Shown here: piece by piece, positions 22,352 through 51,853 of the stretch
Layout of the letters: the number at the start of each line of letters is the position of its first letter
Position numbering within the stretch: position 1 is the stretch's first letter
Source of the DNA: Phytoactinopolyspora halophila
GTDB lineage: Bacteria > Actinomycetota > Actinomycetes > Jiangellales > Jiangellaceae
NCBI RefSeq assembly: GCF_003287285.1
Contig: NZ_QMIG01000001.1
Location: 186,001 to 250,000, forward strand
Direction of reading: 5' to 3'
Length of the DNA stretch: 64,000 bases
Position numbers and translations under genes: made by a program
The notes under the pieces: model-generated
Database searches by the model: none
Told to the model about the DNA's origin: nothing
What the model saw: only the letters and a program-made list of their open reading frames with translations

Positions 22352-23587
22352 ATGAGTGTTGTCGATATCATCGAATCCGACGTCCGCGACGTCGTGCGCA
22401 AGGAAGGCATCGATCCCGTCGTACGGCGCGACATCGTGCAGAAGTACGTCGACGACGCGGTAGCTGCCTATACCGAACGCAGCCTCTCCCGTCCGCTACC
22501 GCCCCTCGAGGACCCCGAGGCCGTCACGCGCACGGTCGTCGACGCCATCGCCGGTTACGGCCCTCTCCAGCGTTACTTCGACGATCCCGAGATCGAAGAA
22601 ATCTGGATCAACGAACCTGGAAAGGTGTTCGTCGCCCGCCAGGGCCGTAGCGAGCTGACCACCACCATCCTCACCGAGGGCGAGGTCCAGAACCTCGTGG
22701 AACGGATGCTCAAGAGCTCCGGCCGGCGGCTCGACACGTCAAGCCCTTTCGTCGACGCCATGCTTCCCGATGGAAGCCGGCTGCACGTGGCGATTCCGGA
22801 CATCACGCGACGGCATTGGGCGGTCAATATCCGCAAGCACCTCATGCAGGCCGCCCGTCTGGATGACCTGGTGGCGCTCGGAACGCTCTCCGATCATGCG
22901 GCTCGCTTCCTCCAGGCTTGCGTCGCCGCCGGACTCAACCTGCTGGTGTCCGGGGGTGTCAAGGCCGGCAAGACGACCCTGCTGAACTGCCTCGTCGCCG
23001 CCGTTCCTCCGCGGGAACGAATCGTCAGTTGCGAGGAAGTGTTCGAGATCCAGCCACGCGTACCGGACATCGTGCACATGCAGACTCGGCAAGCCAGCCT
23101 GGAAGGAACCGGCGAGATCACGCTCCGCCGCCTGATCAAGGAAGCGTTGCGCAAGCGGCCCGATCGCCTCATCGTCGGCGAAGTCCGGCAGGAGGAGTGC
23201 TTCGACCTCCTCATAGCGCTCAGCTCGGGCAACCCGGGCATGTGCACGCTACACGCCAACGACGCCCGCAGCGCCGTGCAAAAGCTGTGCAACCTCTCCC
23301 TGCTGGCCCAAGAAAACCTGAACAGCCGGGCTATCACCGAGACCGTCGCCAGCAGCGTGGACATCGTCGTGCAAGTCAATTGCGAGCATGACGGACAGCG
23401 TCGCGTGCGCGAGATCGTGGCCGTGCCGGGCCGGATCGAAGGCGAGATCATCGAACTCGAACAGATCTTCCGCCGCCGTTCTGGCATGCTGACGCGGGCC
23501 GATGGATTCCCTCCCCATGTGGAGCGTTTCGAGGCCGCCGGAATCGACCTGCGCGACGTCCTCGGCAGCCATCCGGGTACCCGCTGA
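22352..23587 (+). CDS. Tad/Flp pilus assembly ATPase (CpaF/TadA)
   Basis: This 411-residue secretion ATPase has an N-terminal helical domain, then AIAGYGPLQRYFDDPEIEEIWINEP, typical of CpaF. Walker A is GGVKAGKTT (201-209), the Asp box is IVSCEEVFEIQ, Walker B-like RPDRLIVGEVRQEECFDLL, and the His box GMCTLHANDARSAVQKL. A hexameric cytoplasmic ATPase of this class powers assembly of thin Flp pili. It heads an operon of seven tightly spaced genes. Confidence 0.92.
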   Translation: MSVVDIIESDVRDVVRKEGIDPVVRRDIVQKYVDDAVAAYTERSLSRPLPPLEDPEAVTRTVVDAIAGYGPLQRYFDDPEIEEIWINEPGKVFVARQGRSELTTTILTEGEVQNLVERMLKSSGRRLDTSSPFVDAMLPDGSRLHVAIPDITRRHWAVNIRKHLMQAARLDDLVALGTLSDHAARFLQACVAAGLNLLVSGGVKAGKTTLLNCLVAAVPPRERIVSCEEVFEIQPRVPDIVHMQTRQASLEGTGEITLRRLIKEALRKRPDRLIVGEVRQEECFDLLIALSSGNPGMCTLHANDARSAVQKLCNLSLLAQENLNSRAITETVASSVDIVVQVNCEHDGQRRVREIVAVPGRIEGEIIELEQIFRRRSGMLTRADGFPPHVERFEAAGIDLRDVLGSHPGTR

Positions 23588-24453
23588 TGGGGGCGCTACT
23601 CGGTCTCACCTTCGGTACCGGAATTCTCCTGATCTGGCGGTCTTTCCACGCCCCGGCCGAACGCTACGCACCTTCGTGGCGCCGCCTGGAGCTTCACCGC
23701 CGGCTCGAAGAACTCATCGCGCAGGCAGGACTGGAGGCCGTGACACCACGGCAACTGATCCTCTCGAGCGCCGGCCTGGGTGCGATCATCGGCATGGTCT
23801 TCCTGGCCGTCTCGCGTACCTGGCCAATCGCACTCGCCTTCACGCTGTTCGGCGCGTACGCGCCAATGGCGCTGGTTCGCATGCGCGCCCGCGCGCGGCA
23901 ACGCGAGCTACGTGATCTGTGGCCCGACGCCGTGGACAATCTCGCCTCCGCGATACGGGCCGGGCTCGCGCTGCCAGAAGCGCTCACCCAGCTAGGAAGC
24001 CGCGGCCCGGAACCGCTGCGCCGTCCGTTCGAGCGCTTCGGTGAGGACTACCGAGCAACTGGACGGTTCGGCCACAGCCTCGACATGCTCAAGCGTCGGC
24101 TGGCAGACCCGACCGGAGATCGAGTCGTCGAGTCCCTGCGAATCGCCCGCGACGTCGGCGGCTCCGACCTCGGCAGGCTGCTGCGCACGCTCTCGTCCTT
24201 CTTGCGGGAAGACGCACGCACCCGCTCCGAGCTGGAGACACGTCAGTCCTGGGTGGTCAACGCTGCCCGGCTCGCCGTCGCAGCTCCCTGGATCCTCCTC
24301 GCATTGCTGTCGCTGCGGTCAGCATCGGTACAGGCGTTCAACGCACCCTCCGGCTGGCTCGTACTCGCCGGCGGCGCGGGCCTTTGCCTGGTGGCGTACC
24401 GGCTCATGATGCACATCGGGCGGCTTCCGCAAGAAGAGCGAGTACTGCGATGA
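23587..24453 (+). CDS. Type II secretion F-family inner-membrane protein, TadB-like
   Basis: This 288-residue protein starts at ATG 23587, sharing one base with the ATPase stop. It has an N-terminal membrane segment, a pair of segments near 55-95, then a cytoplasmic T2SSF domain (RDLWPDAVDNLASAIRAGLALPEAL, VVESLRIARDVGGSDLGRLL, REDARTRSELETRQSWV) and two C-terminal membrane segments. It forms the platform that the ATPase drives. It overlaps tadC by 4 bases. Confidence 0.88.
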   Translation: MGALLGLTFGTGILLIWRSFHAPAERYAPSWRRLELHRRLEELIAQAGLEAVTPRQLILSSAGLGAIIGMVFLAVSRTWPIALAFTLFGAYAPMALVRMRARARQRELRDLWPDAVDNLASAIRAGLALPEALTQLGSRGPEPLRRPFERFGEDYRATGRFGHSLDMLKRRLADPTGDRVVESLRIARDVGGSDLGRLLRTLSSFLREDARTRSELETRQSWVVNAARLAVAAPWILLALLSLRSASVQAFNAPSGWLVLAGGAGLCLVAYRLMMHIGRLPQEERVLR

Positions 24454-25394
24454 GTGCGGTCACGACCGGGGCCTTGATCGGCGCCGGCGTGGGCACAGGA
24501 ATGCTCCTGATCTGGTCACGCCTGCCGTTCCGGAATCGGCCGAGCCTGCACGAGCGGCTGGCGCCGTATGTCGGTGACCGCGCCGACGAGCACGTCGAGC
24601 GCGCGTTGGCCGAACCGGTCTTCACGCCGTTTCCCACATTGGAACGGATCGTGCGGCCGTACGTGGTGCGCGCTGCCTCGTGGCTGGAACGGCTCCTCGG
24701 CGGTGGTGCATCGGTCCGGCGACGGCTCGAACAGGCCGGCCGGGAACAGACCCTGCACGAGTTCCGCATCCAGCAACTGCTATGGGCAGCCACGACAGCT
24801 GCGGGCGGTATCGCTGTCAGCCTGCTCTTGCTCGCCAGCGGCTACACCGGGTCACCGATCCTGCTCCTCGCCTTCAGCCTCGCAGCTGCCATCGCAGGGG
24901 TGATCGCCTATGATCACCGGCTGTCGGCGGCCGTACGCGAGCGCGAACGGCGCATCATGGCGGAGTTTCCCACCGTCGCCGACCTTCTCGCACTCTCCGT
25001 CGCGGCAGGAGACGGCCCCGTGAAGGCGTTGGAAAGGGTGGTCTGGGCCAGCCGGGGTGAGCTCGCCGGCGAGCTTCGCCGGGCGCTCTCGGATGCCCGC
25101 GCAGGTAGCGGACTAGTCGAGGCGCTCGACCGGATCGCCCAGCGCACCAACCTGACCTCACTCGCCCGGTTCGTCGACGGCATTGCCGTGGCCGTCGAAC
25201 GGGGAACGCCTCTCGCCGATGTTCTCCGTGCTCAAGCATCCGACGTGCGTGAACAGCGCAAACGCACTCTGATGGCGATCGGCGGGCGCAAGGAAATATC
25301 GATGATGATTCCCATCGTCTTCATCGTCATGCCAGTCACCATCCTGTTCGCCCTCTATCCGGGTGTGGTGCAGATCAGCACCGTCGTGCCCTGA
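24450..25394 (+). CDS. Type II secretion F-family inner-membrane protein, TadC-like
   Basis: This 314-residue protein starts at ATG 24450, overlapping the tadB stop. After an N-terminal membrane segment (GALIGAGVGTGMLLIW) and a pair at ~115-155 comes EFPTVADLLALSVAAGDGPVKALERV, ALDRIAQRTNLTSLARFVDGI and RKEISMMIPIVFIVMPVTIL, the end conserved in TadC. It pairs with TadB as the second half of the assembly platform. Confidence 0.88.
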   Translation: MSAVTTGALIGAGVGTGMLLIWSRLPFRNRPSLHERLAPYVGDRADEHVERALAEPVFTPFPTLERIVRPYVVRAASWLERLLGGGASVRRRLEQAGREQTLHEFRIQQLLWAATTAAGGIAVSLLLLASGYTGSPILLLAFSLAAAIAGVIAYDHRLSAAVRERERRIMAEFPTVADLLALSVAAGDGPVKALERVVWASRGELAGELRRALSDARAGSGLVEALDRIAQRTNLTSLARFVDGIAVAVERGTPLADVLRAQASDVREQRKRTLMAIGGRKEISMMIPIVFIVMPVTILFALYPGVVQISTVVP

Positions 25395-25423
25395 AATCAG
25401 TTATCGAGAAGGAGAGATCCATC

Positions 25424-25666
25424 ATGTCGCGACCGTCTCGCCCTCACTACCAGCCAGCTCGGCTCACGCCGTCCCGGCGGCAGGATCGAGCCGAGGGACC
25501 GGGCCGCATCCGGCGCAGCCCGCGCTGGCGCGAGGAACGAGGAGACGTTCCTGGCTGGGTCCTCGTCACCCTGATGACAGCCGGGCTCATTGCGATCTTG
25601 CTACCGCTGGCCGAGCAGCATCTGCGTGAGATCTTCGTGGCCGCCCTGGACCTGGTCCGGCCGTGA
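25424..25666 (+). CDS. Small Flp-pilin-like membrane protein
   Basis: This 80-residue protein has a basic 40-residue leader, then ERGDVPGWVLVTLMTAGL and a single hydrophobic helix, ending REIFVAALDLVRP. The size, position directly after the platform genes and G-x-hydrophobic helix fit a Flp-type major pilin. However, the usual Glu at +5 after the cleavage Gly is not in the standard place. GAAGGAGAG precedes the start. It is the best candidate for the pilus subunit of this locus; homology is not recognisable by eye beyond that. Confidence 0.6.
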   Translation: MSRPSRPHYQPARLTPSRRQDRAEGPGRIRRSPRWREERGDVPGWVLVTLMTAGLIAILLPLAEQHLREIFVAALDLVRP

Positions 25667-26136
25667 TCCGCCGCTCCATGGCGGCCGTTCGAACCACAGG
25701 CCGGCATGGCAACGAAAGCGGGCGATCCGGGGCAACAAGACCGACGAGCGACGGCGCCCTCCGGCACGATCGGGGCGCGGCGGTCGTCGAGTTCACGCTC
25801 GTTTCCGCGTTGCTGACCATGCTCTTTCTCGGCATTCTCCAATTGGGCTTTGCCATCCACGTTCGCAACACGGTCGTGGCCAGCGCCGCCGAGGGAGCTC
25901 GCTACGCCGCCAACGCCAACCGGAGCCTGGCAGACGGGCAAGCCCGCACCCAGATGCTTCTCGCAGAGTCGCTGTCTTCGCAACTGAGCACGGACGTCGG
26001 CGCGCGCATCGTCGACGTCGGTGGCGCAGCAACGGTCGAGGTCACCGTCACGACCACGCTTCCACTCGTCGGCATGCTCGGCATCGAACAGGGGATGACG
26101 GTCACCGGTCATGCGATGGCGGAGCCAGCGCCATGA
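25663..26136 (+). CDS. TadE-like pseudopilin 1
   Basis: This 157-residue protein starts at GTG 25663, overlapping the previous stop. The leader ends DRG-AAVVEF, a prepilin-peptidase-like site with Glu at +5, followed by a hydrophobic helix (LLTMLFLGILQLGFAIHVRN) and VVASAAEGARYAAN, the TadE hallmark. The extracellular part is ~80 residues. TadE proteins are minor pilins needed for Flp pilus assembly. Confidence 0.85.
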   Translation: MIRRSMAAVRTTGRHGNESGRSGATRPTSDGALRHDRGAAVVEFTLVSALLTMLFLGILQLGFAIHVRNTVVASAAEGARYAANANRSLADGQARTQMLLAESLSSQLSTDVGARIVDVGGAATVEVTVTTTLPLVGMLGIEQGMTVTGHAMAEPAP

Positions 26137-26564
26137 CCCCGGCACGGCACCGGCGCGAGCACGGCAACGCCATCGTCGAGTTTCACCTTCTCGGCCTCCT
26201 GCTGCTCGTGCCGATCGTCTACATCATGCTGGCCACCCTCGACGTGCAGCGCTCGTCATTCGGCGTCACCCAAGGGGTGCGCGAAGCCGGGCGGATGTTC
26301 GTGTCCACCGGGGACGAGGCAGCGGCCCGGCACGCAGCTACAGTCGCGTTACGCGACCACGGCCTGGACATCAACGAAGTGACACTGAGCTTCTCCTGCT
26401 CGTCCACACCGTGCCATCAACCAGGCAGCGAAATCAGAGTCACGATGAACGCCGAGGTCGCGCTGCCGTTCGTGCCGGACGTCCTCGCAGGCTCGGTGAA
26501 CGCACACGTCCCAGTCGAAGCAAGCCATGTCGCCGTGGTCGACCGCTACCGGGAACTGCCATGA
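26133..26564 (+). CDS. TadE-like pseudopilin 2
   Basis: This 143-residue protein starts at ATG 26133, overlapping the previous stop by 4 bases. A short leader has EHG-NAIVEF (Glu at +5), then a membrane helix (LLGLLLLVPIVYIMLATLDV) and VTQGVREAGRMFVS. A CSCSSTPCHQP stretch gives two or three Cys, perhaps a disulphide in the exposed domain. Confidence 0.82.
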   Translation: MTPARHRREHGNAIVEFHLLGLLLLVPIVYIMLATLDVQRSSFGVTQGVREAGRMFVSTGDEAAARHAATVALRDHGLDINEVTLSFSCSSTPCHQPGSEIRVTMNAEVALPFVPDVLAGSVNAHVPVEASHVAVVDRYRELP

Positions 26565-27037
26565 GCCCTGACGACCGGCCACCTCAGCGAACTGCCGTGG
26601 CGGGACAGGAGTCGGGTCAGATCACTCTCATGATCCTCGGCTTCGTCGTCGTTCTCGCGCTCACCGTCGCGGTGGTTGCCAACGCCTCACACCTGTTCCT
26701 ACAGCGGCGATCCCTGACCTCCTGGGCCGACGGCGCGGTGACGGCGGCTGCGCAGAGCGCGGCGCACGAATCCCTGTACGGGGGCACCACCGGATCGATG
26801 CTCCCCCTCTCCGAGGCGGCAGCTCGCCGAGCGGTCGCGAACTACATCGAGATCAACGACGTGGGCGATCGGTTCGACGATTTCGCCGTCGTCCACGTGG
26901 GCGTCGACCCCCCGGGCCACCGGGTCACCGTCGAGCTCACCGCCTCGGCGTCGCTGATAGGACCCGATGAGATCATCGGTGGCAGGGCCGCAGTCTCGGT
27001 TACTGCCCGGGCGAGTGCTCGCGTACCGTTCGAGTGA
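26561..27037 (+). CDS. TadG/Flp-locus pilin-like protein
   Basis: This 158-residue protein starts at ATG 26561, again in a 4-base overlap. The N-terminus ESG-QITLMILGFVVVLALTVAVV resembles the TadG/Rv3656-type helix but lacks the +5 Glu. After it comes ASHLFLQRRSLTSWADGAV and an extracellular domain of ~100 residues. It is the last gene of the Tad operon; no prepilin peptidase gene is seen in the window. Confidence 0.75.
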   Translation: MSPDDRPPQRTAVAGQESGQITLMILGFVVVLALTVAVVANASHLFLQRRSLTSWADGAVTAAAQSAAHESLYGGTTGSMLPLSEAAARRAVANYIEINDVGDRFDDFAVVHVGVDPPGHRVTVELTASASLIGPDEIIGGRAAVSVTARASARVPFE

Positions 27038-40797: not shown

Positions 40798-42165
40798 TCA
40801 CCGACGTAAGCGGAACAGGCCACGTCTGGGCGCCAGGGCTTCGAACCCAAGCAGCGTTCGGCTCAGTGCTTGTATGCTCTGCCGGGCTCCGGACGCGGGA
40901 GCAGCTTCGGCCAGGCTCAATCCTCCCGCGAGCGCCGCGTCCAACGCGTCGGGATCGTCGGGCACGTACACGGGATTGCGGATCCCGGCATAGCGCTGCA
41001 AGGCGTCGCCGATCTGGCTCGTGGGATCCGGGCCGGCAACGGAACCCCGCACCCGATTGACGACGACGGTGAGGACGGCTTCCGGGACGGCTTCGCCGAG
41101 GTCCGACAGTCCCCTGACCAACCGGGCAAGGCCGACCGGATCGCCGGCACCGACCACCACGACGACGTCGGCGGCCTGCAACGTGGCCAGTGTCGCGCCG
41201 TTACGCTGCGGCGCGGCGGTGTCGAAACGCAGCGCCTCGTCCTCTTCCACGCAGAACCCGCAATCCACCACGGTGGTCGCCGCGACCGAGCGCATCTCGT
41301 CGTAGACCGTCTCGAGCGCCGCGGGTCGCAGTTCCGGCCACCGGACGGCGCGCGGGATTCCGGTCAAGACATGCAGTGCAGGCGCGACCCAGCGGGCATG
41401 GCGGGCAAGCGAGATCGCGTCGAGTGCGCCATCGTTGGCCAGCCGCGCCGCGCCGGCAAGGCCCGGAGCCTCGTCGAGCAGGCCCAGCACTTGCGCGATC
41501 GACGCGCCATAGGTGTCCGCGTCGGCGAGCATCGTCGGCAGGCCCAACAGTGCCGATTCCATCGCGATATTGACCGCCAGCGTCGTGCGTCCCGGCGAAC
41601 CGCATGGCCCCCACACGGCGATCAGGCGGCCACGCTGCCCGCTGCTCTCCACGAAGGCGAGGGCGTCCGCGTCTGCTTCAGCCTCCCGCGCCACACCATC
41701 GGGGCGCACAGTGGCATCGGTGTCCGTCCCCTTCGCCCTCCCGTCACCCTGCTGCGGCGACGTCGTCGCGCCGGCCTCCGCGACCGCCTGCAGGATGGTC
41801 TCGGCCAGCTCCTTCGGCCCGATGTCGACGGGCACGACATGCCGCACGCCAAGACGGGACAATCGCGCGTCGACGCCGGTATCGCCGGGCGGGCGCACCC
41901 CGATCACGCCTACCCGGGATCGGCGAAGGCTGCTCACCGTCTCGCGGTCGAGGTGGCGCATGTCTTCACCCAAGAGGACCGCCTGCCCGATGCCGGCACC
42001 GACGGTCGCCAGCAACTCGGCGACGTCGACGCAGCGGCGTACCACGGCGATCCGGCCTGGAGCGATCTCCAGGGTCTTCACCAGCTGCGCGTCCCACCCG
42101 GCGGCACTCACCGCGGTCAGTACCTGAACGTCGTGTGTGCGGCCACCCGCTGCGAATCCAGACAT
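40798..42165 (-). CDS. CpaE-like MinD/ParA-family ATPase with altered P-loop
   Basis: This 455-residue protein has an N-terminal receiver-like domain (~10-130) without clear phospho-Asp chemistry, a disordered acidic linker (~135-175) and a MinD/ParA domain. The P-loop is VWGPCGSPGRTTLAVNIA (about 185-201), where the usual lysine is Arg193 and the signature lysine is missing. TMLADADTYGASIAQVLGL and VVDCGF match the other SIMIBI motifs. CpaE/TadZ proteins position Tad pili. This gene and the SAF protein gene upstream could supply parts missing from the Tad operon 14 kb away. It follows the SAF gene by 9 bases. Confidence 0.75.
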   Translation of the reverse strand: MSGFAAGGRTHDVQVLTAVSAAGWDAQLVKTLEIAPGRIAVVRRCVDVAELLATVGAGIGQAVLLGEDMRHLDRETVSSLRRSRVGVIGVRPPGDTGVDARLSRLGVRHVVPVDIGPKELAETILQAVAEAGATTSPQQGDGRAKGTDTDATVRPDGVAREAEADADALAFVESSGQRGRLIAVWGPCGSPGRTTLAVNIAMESALLGLPTMLADADTYGASIAQVLGLLDEAPGLAGAARLANDGALDAISLARHARWVAPALHVLTGIPRAVRWPELRPAALETVYDEMRSVAATTVVDCGFCVEEDEALRFDTAAPQRNGATLATLQAADVVVVVGAGDPVGLARLVRGLSDLGEAVPEAVLTVVVNRVRGSVAGPDPTSQIGDALQRYAGIRNPVYVPDDPDALDAALAGGLSLAEAAPASGARQSIQALSRTLLGFEALAPRRGLFRLRR

Positions 42166-42174
42166 GGCCCCTCC

Positions 42175-42891
42175 TCACGGAAGCTGCGACAACGAAACGT
42201 TGCCGCTCCGGCTCGCCGCGACGAGCCGGCTCACCAGCTCGTCGAGCTCGTCGCCATCCGATGCGCGAACAGCCACATCGACGGTGGCGTGCTGACTACC
42301 CATACCCAGCCCCGCCCCCGTGTCGGCTTCGACAACCGTCACCGCCGAGACGAGCTTCTCGGCCGTTTCATCCTCGACCGAGATCGCCCACACGTCGACA
42401 GAGTCACCCGCGGTGAGGCCCGCCGGTACCTGCCCTCCGGGAACGGCCAAGGTGAGATAGCGCAGCGCCTCTGGCGTCGATTCCATCTCGTCGACGGGCA
42501 TCACGGCTGATCGCGACAGCAGCTCACCCGCTTCGAGATCGTGCACCGTCACGTACCCGTCGCCGAGCTCGCCCGTGTAGTAACGGTCGATCCCGGCATC
42601 GAACGCGACGTCGACAGCCTGCACCAGATCCGGCGTCAACGGCTCGCCCGGCCCGAGATCACGTGCTGCTGCCAGCACGGGCACGGTGTCGTTCGCGGCG
42701 GCGACCACGCGCACACCGGCGACCACAGACACCAGGACGAGGAGCGCACCGATGATCAGTTGGGGATGGCGCCACCGGACCCGGCGCGCCCGCACACCTC
42801 GCGGCGATTCGGGCTCGCCCGATACTTCCGGGCCGGTGCCCGGCAGGGAACTCAACAGCATCCGCAAAGAATAGCTAATGCTCGCGAACAT
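42175..42891 (-). CDS. SAF-domain membrane protein (CpaB/RcpC-like)
   Basis: This 238-residue protein has a cytoplasmic basic N-terminus, one membrane segment (LIIGALLVLVSVVAGVRVV) and an external SAF domain: VLAAARDLGPGEPLTPDLVQAV, LEAGELLSRSAVM and LAVPGGQVPAGLTAGDSVDVW. That is the opening half of CpaB/RcpC, the Flp pilus periplasmic factor. Start may instead be ATG 42861. It is followed by the CpaE-like gene. Confidence 0.75.
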   Translation of the reverse strand: MFASISYSLRMLLSSLPGTGPEVSGEPESPRGVRARRVRWRHPQLIIGALLVLVSVVAGVRVVAAANDTVPVLAAARDLGPGEPLTPDLVQAVDVAFDAGIDRYYTGELGDGYVTVHDLEAGELLSRSAVMPVDEMESTPEALRYLTLAVPGGQVPAGLTAGDSVDVWAISVEDETAEKLVSAVTVVEADTGAGLGMGSQHATVDVAVRASDGDELDELVSRLVAASRSGNVSLSQLP

Positions 42892-42990: not shown

Positions 42991-43539
42991 TCAGCGCCGA
43001 AGCATCATGCCGACCGCGGCGAACGGCACGACCACGGATGGCGCACTCGGCCTCCCGCCCTCGCCGCGAACACGCGGCGTAAGATCGAATGCGTCCGCTC
43101 CCACTCGATCGACCGTGCCCTCCAGTCTCGACCCGTCGGCCACGCTGACGATGGTGTGCGAACGATCCGAGCAGATCACAGTGAGAGCGTGCCGGAAGGT
43201 CAGCATCGCCACCATCGACCCCTCCGACCGAGGTGCCGCCGCACCTTCTCGAAGACCGCCGATGACCAGTACCGATGCCGTCGGCACGAGTATCTCGGCA
43301 CCGCCCTGCTCGGCCAGCAAGAACCAGTCCGGACCGATCTCACGCAGCACGCCCCGGACCCGTTCCGGACCGAGCACGTGCACGTCGATCGCTTGACCGT
43401 CGACCACGCGCAAGCGGTCCTCCAGGCGGATGTTCTTGCGTTCGGCCCGAGTGCGCACCGCGATCTCGTCCTCCAGCTCCAGACGGGTAGCGGCATCCAG
43501 TTGGGCCACGGCATCGGCGAACAGGCGCTCCCAGCGCAT
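42991..43539 (-). CDS. Conserved actinobacterial protein of unknown function
   Basis: This 182-residue protein opens MRWERLFADAVAQLDAATRLELEDEIAVRTRAER, an amphipathic helical segment. Two short beta-rich modules follow (VRGVLREIGPDWFLLAEQGG and GTVDRVGADAFDLTPRV), reminiscent of small SH3/Sm-like barrels. No signal or membrane segment. I recognise the general type from other actinomycetes but no function. It is upstream of the SAF and CpaE-like genes on the same strand and divergent from the LysM gene. Confidence 0.7.
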   Translation of the reverse strand: MRWERLFADAVAQLDAATRLELEDEIAVRTRAERKNIRLEDRLRVVDGQAIDVHVLGPERVRGVLREIGPDWFLLAEQGGAEILVPTASVLVIGGLREGAAAPRSEGSMVAMLTFRHALTVICSDRSHTIVSVADGSRLEGTVDRVGADAFDLTPRVRGEGGRPSAPSVVVPFAAVGMMLRR

Positions 43540-43697: not shown

Positions 43698-43744
43698 TAC
43701 AAACAGAAGTAAACGAATGGTAATGACATCTTCGAGTGGTACCT

Positions 43745-44488
43745 ATGAACCTCCAGCACGTATCTCACATGCCGTGCCCACCGGCACGTCGCGCCACCAC
43801 ACGGACCGCCTCTGCGGTGCCGCGATCAGCGGCCGTACTGGCCAGCGCGGGCTCGGCCTTCGGGCTGCTCTCATGGCTCGCCGGACGATCCCTCGCGGCC
43901 ACGCACTCTGGCTCGGCCACCTTCGACGAGCTCGTCGGCACGGCTGCAGCACTCGGAGCGTGGGCACTGAGCGGCTGGGTCACCGTCTGCGTGACAATGG
44001 CGGTGCTCGCCGCGGTCCCGGGCTGGCTGGGACACGTCGCGGCACGCGCGCAACGATCGATCACACCCGCGGCCACGCGGCGCCTGCTGCACGCCTCGCT
44101 CGGACTCGCCACCGTCGCAGCATCCGGTGCCATCAGCACCGCCCACGCGACACCGGTACTCGTAGCCGCACCGCCGGCCATGACGGCCTGCACGGGCGGC
44201 TCCTCGCCACCATCACCGTTGCCGGACGTCGGACGCCCAGCCGTTTCCCCGCCACCTGCGGCCGAGCAGGACCGGCCGGACAAGCCCCGCGATACGCCAG
44301 AACCCGTCCCGGTCAGGCCCGGCGACACGCTCTGGGACATCGTCGACGAACACATCGGCCCCGAGGCGACCCCCTCGGATGTCGCCCGCGAGTGGCCCCG
44401 CTGGCACGCCGCCAACCGAGCCGTCATCGGCGCCGATCCGGACCTGATCCACCCCGGTCAGCGGCTCGTGCCGCCCGGACATATCTGA
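43745..44488 (+). CDS. Membrane protein with C-terminal LysM domain
   Basis: This 247-residue protein starts at ATG 43745 (GTG 43736 also possible). Two hydrophobic segments (LGAWALSGWVTVCVTMAVLA and one near AASGAISTAHA) are followed by a Pro-rich linker. A C-terminal LysM-like domain follows: VRPGDTLWDIVDEHIG, EWPRWHAANRAVIG, DLIHPGQRLVPPG. LysM binds N-acetylglucosamine in peptidoglycan. Such genes commonly precede an Rv3235-type gene near secA in actinomycetes. The role is not known. Confidence 0.8.
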   Translation: MNLQHVSHMPCPPARRATTRTASAVPRSAAVLASAGSAFGLLSWLAGRSLAATHSGSATFDELVGTAAALGAWALSGWVTVCVTMAVLAAVPGWLGHVAARAQRSITPAATRRLLHASLGLATVAASGAISTAHATPVLVAAPPAMTACTGGSSPPSPLPDVGRPAVSPPPAAEQDRPDKPRDTPEPVPVRPGDTLWDIVDEHIGPEATPSDVAREWPRWHAANRAVIGADPDLIHPGQRLVPPGHI

Positions 44489-44505
44489 CAAGGAGCCAAC
44501 TCACC

Positions 44506-45084
44506 ATGTCGGGACCTTCCACAGCCACCACGCGCTGGCGACGCACGTGTGCCCCGGTCACGGAACCGCCATATGACGACGAGTCCGGGTACCCACCACC
44601 TTCGCCGGACGAACTGCGAGCCCGGCGCCAGTCATCTGACATCACTATCCAGCACGAGCTCGCCTTGTCCATCACCACCTCCGGTGGCATACCGTCGATA
44701 CCCCGGCCCGGAGGACGTCCCGGGCAGGACAACCGCCTCGCCGACGACGACGTCGCCCCCGGGCTACCCGAGCCGCGGCGCTGGTGCGCCATGATCGCGC
44801 AAGCGGTCGTAGAGACCCTGTATGGTCAACGCCCCGTTCAGCAACTCGCACGATGGACGACCGCCGACGTCTATGGCGACCTCGTACAGCGCGCGGTCAG
44901 GCGGCGGACCGTCGGACCGGGCGCGGCGCCCACGGTACGCACCGTCCGGCTCTGCATGGTCCGTGCCGACGTCGTCGAAGCCAGCGCTGTCATCCAGACC
45001 GGAACCCGGGCTCGTGCCCTGGCCGTTCGGCTGGAATCCCGCGATACCGACCACTGGTTGTGCGCGGCAGCCGAACTGGTGTGA
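44506..45084 (+). CDS. Rv3235-type protein (DUF6459)
   Basis: This 192-residue protein starts at ATG 44506 after AAGGAGC. The first ~90 residues are low complexity. The conserved C-terminal domain contains WCAMIAQAVVETLYGQRPVQQLARW, VYGDLVQRAVRR, VRLCMVRADVVEASAVIQ and RALAVRLESRDTDHWLCAAAEL. This is the Rv3235 family, found near secA in actinomycetes. Function is unknown. It follows the LysM gene by 17 bases. An 18-bp hairpin begins inside its last codons. Confidence 0.8.
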   Translation: MSGPSTATTRWRRTCAPVTEPPYDDESGYPPPSPDELRARRQSSDITIQHELALSITTSGGIPSIPRPGGRPGQDNRLADDDVAPGLPEPRRWCAMIAQAVVETLYGQRPVQQLARWTTADVYGDLVQRAVRRRTVGPGAAPTVRTVRLCMVRADVVEASAVIQTGTRARALAVRLESRDTDHWLCAAAELV

Positions 45085-46345: not shown

Positions 46346-49165
46346 TCACGACATGGCTGCTCGCTGCTTCGGGTCACCGTGGCAACGCTTGAACTTCTTC
46401 CCCGATCCACACGGGCACAAGGAGTTGCGGGCGACCCCCTCGAACCGGCTCTCATCATCGTCGTCACCGTTGGACGCGGCGTGGGCGCCGCGCGCTCCCC
46501 CGGGTCCAGAAGCGACGACGTTGCGCTGTACACCGCCCTCGCCGTCGACCGTCGGCGCGGTGTATTGCAACTGCGCCGGACGGCGCGCCGGAGTGAGCCC
46601 TTCGGCCTCGACCACCGGAGCGGAACGCTCTCCCGCCTCGGCAGCCTCCGCATCCTCGGATTCGGGCTTTCGCACCTGGACTTCCAGGTTGAACAACAAG
46701 CCCACGGATTCTTCCTTGATCCCGTCCATCATGGTGGTGAACAGGTCGAAACCCTCACGCTGGTACTCGACCAACGGTTGCTTCTGTGCGAACGCACGCA
46801 GGCCGATGCCCTCACGCAGATAATCCATCTCGTAGAGGTGCTCGCGCCACTTGCGGTCGATCACCGTCAGCAGGACCCGACGTTCAAGTTCGCGCATCAC
46901 CTCGGAACCCAGCTCCGCCTCGCGTGCCGCGTAGGCGGCGCGTGCGTCCTCGACGAGCTCCTTGGTCAGCGTGCTCGCCGACAGCCGCTCCCGTCCACCG
47001 GCATCCGCGATGACCTTCTCGGCGTCGAGCGAGACCGGGTACAGCGTCTTCAGCGCTCGCCACAGTTCATCGAGATCCCAGGTCTCCGGGAAGCCGTCGT
47101 TCGTCGCACCGCGAACGTAAGCTGTCACGACGTCGTCGAGCATCGCCGTCACCTGTTCGTGCAGGTCCTCACCTTCCAGAACGCGCCGGCGTTCTTCGTA
47201 GATGACCTGGCGCTGGCGGTTGAGGACGTCGTCGTACTTGAGCACGTCCTTGCGTGCCTCGAAGCTCTGCGCCTCGCGCTGTGCCTGCGCATTCTTGACC
47301 GCACCGCTCACTCGCTTGTGTTCGATGGGGACGTCTTCCGGCTGGTTGAGCGTGCGCATGATCGTCTCGACCCAGTCGGCCTTGAAGAGCCGCATGAGAT
47401 CGTCCTGCAACGACAGGTAGAAGCGCGATTCACCAGGATCTCCCTGGCGGCCAGAACGGCCACGCAGCTGATTGTCGATCCGGCGGGATTCGTGGCGTTC
47501 CGTACCCAGGACATAGAGACCACCGACCTGGCGGACCTCGTCACGCTCGGCCGCCACCTGCGCCTCGTACTTCTCGAGCACGGCTTCCTCGGCGGCCGCG
47601 TACTCCTCTGGATTCTCCACCGGATCCAGGCCGCGTTGCTTGAGCTCGGCAGCGGCCATGAATTCGTGGTTCCCGCCGAGCATGATGTCCGTGCCGCGAC
47701 CGGCCATGTTCGTCGCCACCGTGACGGCTCCCCGGCGCCCGGCCTGCGCGATGATCGCGGCCTCACGATCATGGTTTTTCGCGTTGAGCACCTCGTGCGG
47801 CACGCCATGCTTGCGCAGCAACTGCGACAGCCGCTCGGACTTCTCCACGCTGGTGGTTCCGACCAGGATCGGCTGGCCCCGTCGGTGCCGTTCCACGATG
47901 TCCTCGACCACCGCATTGAACTTCGCGTCCTCGGTGCGGTAGATGAGATCGTCGGAGTCGATACGGATCATGGGGCGATTGGTCGGAATGGGGACGACAC
48001 CGAGGTTGTAGATCTTGTCGAACTCGCTCGCCTCGGTCATCGCCGTACCGGTCATGCCCGCGAGTTTGTCGTAGAGGCGGAAGAAGTTCTGCAGGGTGAT
48101 CGACGCCAGGGTCTGGTTCTCCTGCTTGATCTCCACCCCTTCCTTGGCCTCGATGGCTTGGTGCATGCCCTCGTTGTAGCGACGGCCGCCCAGGACCCGG
48201 CCCGTGTGCTCGTCGACGATCATGACGCTGCCATCGACGACCACGTACTCCTTGTCCCGCCGGTACAGCTCCTTGGCCTTCAAGGAGTTGTTGAGGAACT
48301 GGATGAGCGGGGTGTTGGCGCTCTCGTAGAGGTTGTCGATGCCCAACCAGTCCTCGACCCGTTCGATACCAGGCTCAAGAACACCGACGGTGCGTTTCTT
48401 CTCGTCGACCTCGTAGTCGGTGTCCCGGGTCAGCCGCTCGGCGATCTTCGTGAACTCCCGGTACCACTTGGTGGGCTGATCAGCCGGACCCGAAATGATC
48501 AACGGCGTGCGGGCCTCGTCGATGAGGATCGAGTCCACCTCATCCACGATGGCGAAGAAATGGTCACGCTGGACCATGTCCTCCATCCGCTGCGCCATGT
48601 TGTCCCGCAGGTAGTCGAAGCCGAACTCGTTGTTGGTGCCATAGGTGATGTCGGCGGCGTACTGCTTGCGCCGTTCCGCCGAGGAGAGCCCGTTGACGAT
48701 CACGCCGACCTCAAGCCCGAGGAACCGGTAGATGCGGCCCATCCACTCGGCATCGCGCCTGGCCAGGTAATCATTGACCGTCACGATGTGCACGCCCTTG
48801 CCGGCCAGCGCGTTGAGATATGCCGGCAGGGTGGCGACCAGCGTCTTTCCCTCGCCGGTTTTCATCTCGGCGATGTTGCCGAGGTGCATCGCCGCGCCGC
48901 CCATGATCTGAACGTCGAAGTGTCGCTGGCCGAGGGCTCGCTTGGCCGTCTCCCGGACGGTGGCGAAGGCTTCGGGGAGGAGATCGTCAAGTGTCTCCCC
49001 CTCCTCGTATCGCTTGCGGAACTCGTCTGTCATCTCCCGCAGCTCGTCGTCGGAGAGATCGACGAAGTCCTCCTCGATGCTGTTGACCTGTTTGACGATC
49101 GTGTCCAGACGCTTGAGGATCTTTCCTTCCCCAGCGCGGAGGATCTTGTCGAGCAGAACGGGCAC
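46346..49165 (-). CDS. secA: Preprotein translocase ATPase SecA
   Basis: Start set at GTG 49165 ([19 protein letters not shown]), because AGGAG sits 9 bases before it, whereas ATG 49174 would touch the AGGAG. That gives 939 residues. Motifs: [18 protein letters not shown] (Walker A), [38 protein letters not shown] (DEAD-like Walker B), [18 protein letters not shown] and [19 protein letters not shown]. The zinc-binding SEC-C tail [18 protein letters not shown] is complete. It drives protein export through SecYEG. In species with two SecA proteins this form is SecA1. Confidence 0.97.
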
Positions 49166-49366
49166 GCGGGTCATCTCCTAGACGGACGGGTATGCGGTTC
49201 AGGGCGGGAACACGTCCCCATGGCATCTCAGACAATGGTACGTGGCAACCCATCGGACAGTTAATAATGCGACCGTGCCCGCGCGAGCACCAGCAAGCTC
49301 ACCGGCATCACCGAGAGCACCGAAAATCCATTGCCTGCCATGCGATACGTTTGCAGGATACCCGCA

Positions 49367-50540: not shown

Positions 50541-51755
50541 TCAGGTTCCGGCGCGGATCGCCGCCTGCAGCGCCGGGGCGAGGTCGCCCCGACTGCTCAC
50601 CTCGACACCGGCCAGCCCGAGCCACGTGGCCATGGACGCGAGCTCTGTGGCAAGCTCATCCGGCGTCTCCACCGGGGCATCGGCTTCTGCCCAGGCAGCT
50701 TGAACGCGCAGTATGCCGGCCTGCCGATCTGCCTTGAGATCGACCCGCGCGACGAGGCGGTCTCCCAGCAAGAACGGCAAGACGTAATAGCCGTACACCC
50801 GTTTCGCCTTGGGCACGTAGATCTCTATCCGGTAGTGAAAGTCGAACAATGCCTGCGCACGCGAGCGCTCCCACACCACCGAATCGAACGGGCTGAGCAA
50901 TGCCCTGGCCTGGACCCGGCGTGGCACCCGGGCATCGCTGTACAGGTACGCCCGACGGTTCCAGCCCTCGACCTCGACCGGCAGCAGCTCCCCTTCTTCG
51001 ACGAGCTCGTTCACGGCGTTGCGGCTGTGCTGCGCGGGCAGCCGGAAGTAATCCCGCAGGCACTGCTCCGTACCGATACCGTGAGATCGGGCCGCCACAC
51101 GAATCAGCTCACGATAGGCCTCGGCAGGCGACGGGGTGGGAGTGGCGAGCACCTCGGGTGGGAGGACCCGTTCAGGCAGATCGTAGAGCCGGGCGAACGA
51201 GGCATTACGCCCCGCCGCCGTCACCTCACCGGCCCAGAACAAGAACTCCAGAGCGGACTTCACATCCGACCAGTTCCAGCCCCAGTTGTCCTTGCGCCGC
51301 GGAGCGTCCTCCTCGATCTCGCTAGCCGTCACCGGCCCGAGGCGCTTGACCTCGTCACGAACCCACGACACCAGTTCTGGCTGCCGATGCGCCACGCGGC
51401 GCATCCCTCCCCACGCCGACTCGCCCGCTCCCGCCATCCGCCAGCGCAGGTACGGATGCAGGTGGACCGGCACCAGCGATGCCTCGTGCGCCCAGTACTC
51501 GAACAACAACCGCGGCGCTCGTGCGGCCGCACGATCGAGCATGTCCCGCGGATACGGACCTAACCGGCTGAAGATCGGCAGGTACTGCGACCGCGAGAGC
51601 ACGTTCACCGAATCGATCTGGACGACCGCAACCCGCTCGAACACGCGCCGCAGCGTCCGGCGATCCGGCCGGACAGGGCGTGGATCGGCGAACCCCTGCG
51701 CGGCGAGCGCGATCCGGCGTGCCATGCTGCGAGAGAGCGTGCTTGGTCGAGCCAT
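50541..51755 (-). CDS. YcaQ-like winged-helix DNA glycosylase (crosslink-repair family)
   Basis: Start set at ATG 51755 ([20 protein letters not shown]), giving 404 residues. The HTH_42/YcaQ family pattern is present: [94 protein letters not shown] (quoted in pieces) and [20 protein letters not shown]. Members unhook interstrand crosslinks or excise bulky alkyl lesions; AlkX (YcaQ) has QxD catalytic residues, matching VVQIDS. It is convergent with the GNAT gene. Confidence 0.88.
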
Positions 51756-51853
51756 GCGCGAGACGCTAGCAGTCCCGACCGACAACTCCAGCGCTTCACA
51801 GCGCCCATGATCTCCGCAGGATACGCCAGGTACGACGCAGACGAGTCGTTCTT

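Follow-up and report, generated by a model that had tools for sequence, protein, structure and literature searches.

A SAF-domain protein and a CpaE-like protein encoded apart from the tad operon of Phytoactinopolyspora halophila: a likely detached module of the Tad pilus

In the genome of Phytoactinopolyspora halophila (5.04 Mb in 77 contigs) genes for a SAF-domain membrane protein and a CpaE-like protein, here called CpaE2, stand together at a distance from the nearest tad operon, which raises the question of which machine they serve. Both lie in the stretch of DNA that was analysed as a whole, 64,000 nucleotides at positions 186001-250000 of contig NZ_QMIG01000001.1 (the window; all coordinates are counted from its first letter). 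A sequence-only reading of the window had noticed the two genes, placed them about 14 kb from the Tad operon and proposed either that they complete the Tad machine or that they build a separate envelope system together with the LysM and Rv3235-type products of genes near secA. The pair was described correctly: SAF (42175-42891) and CpaE2 (40798-42165) are open frames arranged in tandem on the minus strand with 9 bp between them, their coding is backed by third-position GC (guanine plus cytosine) content, and the measured distance to the operon (22352-27037) is 13.8 kb. As to function, we consider it likely that the two proteins are the CpaB and CpaE components of a Tad (type IVc) pilus, encoded as a module apart from its motor, platform and minor pilins at 22352-27037, and our confidence is limited by weaker evidence on a third Tad locus of the genome and on the fold of the SAF protein.

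This reading rests first of all on the distribution of the genes over the class. Co-occurrence with tad genes had been named as the check, and large numbers of genomes with the pair and without any tad gene as the opposing outcome. The latter was not seen: the TadA query found a match in 60 of 60 relatives, with most TadA2 matches at 56-72% identity and other types at about 34-42%, while the CpaE2 query matched 36 of them at E ≤ 0.001, a few weakly. Since TadA-like genes are found everywhere, such a comparison is weak, and the informative one is made at the level of the paralogue. In 196 genomes of the class, each at least 90% complete, CpaE2 (threshold E ≤ 1e-20) was registered in 96, TadA2, the paralogue encoded in the window (E ≤ 1e-80), in 98 and Ssd (E ≤ 1e-40) in 150. 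CpaE2 and TadA2 were both present in 81 genomes, CpaE2 only in 15, TadA2 only in 17 and neither in 83 (Fisher p=3e-22), so that their status agrees in 164 of 196 cases. Collapsing the data by genus (46/6/6/23 in the same order, p=1e-9) or by family (25/2/2/8, p=5e-5) preserved the association, and within the window's family (18 genomes) five have both genes and 13 have neither. Thus, the answer to the check is positive at the level of the paralogue, and of the two proposals the completion of the Tad machine is the one that gained support.

Genomes with only one of the two genes were inspected as well. TadA2 fragments of at least 50% identity are present in nine of the 15 with CpaE2 only, and a weak CpaE2-like match lies within ~2 kb of DUF6459 (the Rv3235-type gene) in 12 of the 17 with TadA2 only. 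Eight loci of this kind were fetched, and hidden Markov models (HMM) recognised SAF and gave a partial match of CpaE2 in each of them; they came from three of these 12 genomes and from five genomes of family f25 that had been counted under "neither". Post hoc addition of diverged CpaE2 in 17 genomes of families f25, f38 and f29 (eight seen by HMM, nine inferred from weak matches within ~2 kb of DUF6459) and of TadA2 fragments in nine genomes changes the count to 102/11/5/78. This revision leans toward our reading, and the original count is to be preferred.

Linkage to tad genes, taken as a mark of CpaE/TadZ proteins, was also found. Of the 81 genomes that have both CpaE2 and TadA2, 46 encode them on one contig; 39 of these 46 pairs are within 110 kb and 26 within 20 kb, 25 of the latter on the same strand. 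In one genome secA, DUF6459, LysM, DUF182, SAF, CpaE2, a patatin gene, tadA2BCE and prfB follow each other on a single contig over ~16 kb. The Ssd-type Tad system, which is present in the P. halophila genome (a true Ssd gene, 354.7 bits, on contig C25 with a tadA just after it), might be proposed as the partner of the pair instead, and the same data were used as a control. CpaE2 and Ssd are not associated over the 196 genomes (p=1.0), occur on one contig in 11 of the 73 genomes that have both and are never nearer than 301 kb there. Besides, Ssd is itself the CpaE homologue beside that tadA, and we find it hardly credible that the pair works for this system.

The second proposal, an envelope system near secA, has to be judged by the neighbours of the pair. 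Upstream of SAF, after a gap of 100 bp that contains no helix-turn-helix (HTH) gene, the minus strand encodes a protein of 182 amino acids (42991-43539), unnoticed before, which matches no family above cut-off in Pfam and NCBIfam profiles and for which we coined the name DUF182. Divergent from it on the plus strand are a LysM-like gene (43736-44488), with a weak Pfam LysM match of 16.4 bits under the cut-off of 20.9, and the gene of DUF6459 (44506-45084; PF20060, 108.6 bits, scored on a slightly longer frame 44485-45084). A gene of the GDSL lipase family separates DUF6459 from secA (46346-49174, minus strand), where SecA domains were confirmed; thus the neighbours had been named properly, with LysM as the weak case. 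An open reading frame at 50541-51785 has no NCBIfam match, and its assignment as comF, a guess, was dropped.

Conservation of this neighbourhood was followed in named loci of the best 80 among at least 549 relatives, 62 of which extend at least 5.5 kb upstream of CpaE2. The order secA, DUF6459, LysM, DUF182, (HTH), SAF, CpaE2 is kept in all 80 as far as each stretch reaches. SAF, DUF182, LysM and DUF6459 are each present in 62 of the 62 loci with enough upstream DNA, so the clustering goes beyond chance; secA is found in 51 and the HTH gene, an HTH_17 gene divergent from SAF, in 43 of them. No match among solved structures was found for the HTH gene. One record that carries the pair is titled as a metagenome-assembled genome of Spirochaetaceae and is probably mislabelled or contaminated.

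Such tight clustering, as well as five small f25 genomes in which the pair was found and TadA2 was not, would be compatible with an envelope system of SAF, CpaE2, LysM, DUF182 and DUF6459 that is unrelated to Tad. However, DUF6459 is encoded in 190 of the 196 genomes, with CpaE2 or without it, and a system shared with DUF6459 and secA was rejected because of this near-universal presence. In eight loci hand-picked from 100 genomes without CpaE2 (two of them from genus g2 of the window's family), DUF6459 and SecA are retained in all eight, and none gave a match to LysM, DUF182, SAF or CpaE2 at E ≤ 1e-3, the absence of LysM being less certain since its profile is weak. In both loci of the window's family a patatin gene directly follows DUF6459, and one of the eight retained the HTH gene. 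Taken together, co-occurrence with TadA2, linkage to its gene and absence of the block from examined loci that keep DUF6459 and secA argue that the pair completes the nearby Tad machine, and make an envelope system independent of Tad very unlikely. One part of that proposal stood, since LysM, together with DUF182, goes with the pair and probably belongs to the same unit, and the other part, membership of DUF6459, did not.

What kind of proteins are these? The SAF domain is recognised by PF08666 (24.6 bits against a curated cut-off of 21). The predicted model of the protein (predicted local distance difference test, pLDDT, 82) has a single N-terminal helix (43-66), and chains of RcpC were its sole Foldseek matches under E 0.001, the best being 9gzr (E 7.5e-9), with poor overall superposition (template modelling, TM, score 0.30). 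VIA placed FlgA first, by 65 residues within the SAF part (Z 10.0), and aligned RcpC to 85 residues in the second part (Z 8.3). The model of CpaE2 (pLDDT 84) shows the two-domain composition of CpaE/TadZ proteins, receiver-like and ParA/MinD-like, in searches run with the whole model rather than with the N-terminal part separately: residues 12-132 are alternating strands and helices, and the second part fits MinD/ParA proteins with Z up to 28.2 and a root mean square deviation (rmsd) of 2.0 over 240 residues. It aligns over residues 10-439 to 3fkq, which we take to be TadZ of Eubacterium rectale (Foldseek E 5.1e-11; VIA Z 20.3, rmsd 18.8). In most rows the P-loop sequence is VWGPxGxPGR[TS]; arginine takes the place of its lysine throughout two alignments (20 of 20 and 30 of 30 rows), which have the window and no fewer than two other genomes in common. 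As the replacement is present in every row examined, CpaE2 is unlikely to act as a conventional ATPase.

These features allow a tentative picture of the assembly. CpaE2 may act as a cytoplasmic positioning or assembly adaptor, the membrane-anchored SAF protein could form an extracytoplasmic collar, and the LysM protein might tie their machine to peptidoglycan. The idea of the collar comes from the role of RcpC/CpaB in diderms.

Several observations weigh against the pair being a detached module of the TadA2 pilus. SAF scores 24.2 bits with the CpaB profile TIGR03177, far from its cut-off of 71, and is therefore called CpaB-like rather than CpaB; CpaE2 scores 37.2 bits with the Ssd-type profile CpaE_hom_Actino (TIGR03815), whose cut-off is 154.45. 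The TadA2 threshold was chosen after the matches in the 60 relatives had been seen, matches of family f35 (46-54% identity) are intermediate between the bulk of TadA2 and the remaining TadA types, and correction for phylogeny was limited to collapsing by genus and family. No TadA2 fragment was found in six of the 15 CpaE2-only genomes. CpaE2 and TadA2 are encoded on different contigs in 35 of the 81 genomes, and where they do share one (46 genomes), the distance exceeds 900 kb in six cases. The five f25 genomes, with SAF, a diverged partial CpaE2 and no TadA2 match, speak against a strict dependence of the pair on TadA2; in loci of this family SAF and the strongly diverged CpaE2 sit beside DUF6459, and DUF182 and LysM were not detected. 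The CpaE-like gene of the third Tad locus has no Pfam match. Finally, orthology with the genes of Micrococcus luteus, considered below, rests on gene order and on family names printed in two papers.

The partner operon adjoins prfB and is read entirely from the plus strand. It starts with the motor ATPase TadA2 (22352-23587; PF00437, 134 bits; TIGR03819, 265 bits, below the cut-off of 373), followed by TadB (23587-24453) and TadC (24384-25394, true start uncertain), both with PF00482. Then come a protein of 80 amino acids (25424-25666) with one hydrophobic segment and no Pfam match, by eye a possible small pilin, a TadE-like pilin of 157 amino acids (25663-26136; PF07811, cleavage-site-like G/AAVVEF), a second TadE/F-like pilin recognised by eye (26133-26564; site-like G/NAIVEF) and a TadE/G-like protein (26561-27037; the longer frame 26111-27037 scores 32.3 bits with PF13400). 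This operon showed no gene of CpaE or CpaB type. At the third Tad locus of the genome (positions 38000-56000 of C12, the contig of the window, counted from the start of that contig) a SAF gene precedes tadA, which is at ~44 kb of the contig, and a P-loop-like gene beside tadA appears CpaE-like by eye, its motif being also devoid of lysine. That the other two Tad loci have such genes next to tadA (Ssd in one, SAF and the P-loop-like gene in the other) counts in favour of the detached module. In one other genome a partial second copy of tadA2 lies upstream of an apparently whole one.

The tadA2 gene was found interrupted in at least six genomes (G099, G135, G184, G087, G032 and G269), each time with a gene of a large serine recombinase within ~30 bp of the break. 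The N-terminus of TadA2 was found in at least 148 of 393 genomes searched, and six is a minimum, since insertions were looked for only where a short or split frame was already visible. The two parts of tadA2 are separated by 4 to 54 kb of a single contig in G099, G135, G184 and G087 and lie on separate contigs in G032; G269 showed just the first part. TadA2 is broken near residues 150, 159, 208, 230 and 282-308, and identity among the recombinases is 25-44% where they align. The element of G184 carries phage tail genes and that of G135 a phage capsid gene. Repeats at the breaks were rejected, as shared runs of only 6-8 bp at five of the six were taken as chance. Three further genomes have short tadA2 frames and no recombinase in the stretches examined, and no split pair of another TadA type was seen in 16 genomes, a weak comparison made with no matched control gene. 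One tadA2-interrupting element with phage tail genes is ~54 kb long.

What the pilus may do can be judged from these elements and from genetics of M. luteus. According to PMC10083194, targets of serine recombinases are strongly enriched in DNA competence genes, and in PMC11472951 comM is described as broken by mobile elements in Acinetobacter. In M. luteus the knock-out of the SAF gene decreased transformability 10^4-fold (PMC8467076), and both tad clusters are required for transformation, the adherence of tad mutants being reported without obvious change (PMC4322843). From this genetics and from the mobile elements that break tadA2 we lean, with some reserve, to the view that the TadA2 machine is a DNA-uptake (competence) pilus. 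ComEC, tried as a co-occurrence marker, turned out uninformative: being encoded in 193 of 196 genomes, it can be used neither to back competence nor to rule it out. Its near-universal presence counts against this view, and ComEC is not tied to the pair. The pair could then serve a TadA2 pilus used for adhesion or surface sensing. This is improbable in view of the M. luteus mutants and of the recombinase elements that sit in tadA2, and DNA uptake stays the preferred function. A broader proposal, for which we see an even chance, is that TadA2, TadB, TadC and the pilins together with the detached LysM-DUF182-SAF-CpaE2 block form a DNA-uptake pilus common in the class Actinomycetes, absent in some lineages and repeatedly disarmed by integration into tadA2 of elements with dissimilar serine recombinases.

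If so, the data enumerate the components of a probable competence pilus of actinomycetes, divided over two loci, and gene content may predict which actinomycetes can be transformed, a capacity known chiefly from work on a single one. A role is thereby suggested for the uncharacterised DUF182 and LysM-like proteins, and DUF6459 and secA are taken out of the picture. Within titles and opening parts of abstracts, we found no publication on a class-wide pairing of CpaE2 with TadA2 or on tadA as a site of integration beyond what PMC8467076, PMC4322843, PMC12849477, PMC11472951 and PMC10083194 offer.

Among known systems, RcpC/CpaB (9gzr) is the best Foldseek counterpart of the SAF model, but the TM score is low, the SAF domain of FlgA ranks higher in VIA and the CpaB cut-off is not reached. 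The likeness of CpaE2 to TadZ/CpaE (3fkq) extends over both the N-terminal beta-alpha domain and the ParA/MinD-like one, with the differences that arginine replaces the P-loop lysine and that rmsd is large when both domains are superposed together. With Ssd (TIGR03815) CpaE2 has a superfamily in common, but it scores far below cut-off, and the genome has a separate Ssd copy.

The closest parallel is offered by M. luteus. There CpaE (Mlut_14640) and SAF (Mlut_14650) are in one operon away from the tad clusters, and the divergent HTH-17 gene Mlut_14660 occupies the same place as the divergent HTH_17 gene in relatives of the window, whereas the window has none between DUF182 and SAF (PMC8467076). 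In the M. luteus SAF protein G27D abolishes transformation and V31I spares it. G48 and V52 of the window's protein do not vary in either alignment (19 of 19 and 28 of 28 rows); they have the same spacing and would correspond to G27 and V31. The tad loci of M. luteus are printed without rcpC/cpaB, like the Tad operon of the window (PMC4322843). By layout alone, tad-1 (Mlut_07500-07560) would be orthologous to this operon: in both, tadA-tadB-tadC is followed by TadE/F-like pilins, which in tad-1 have ~150 amino acids and G/XXXXE[FS] sites.
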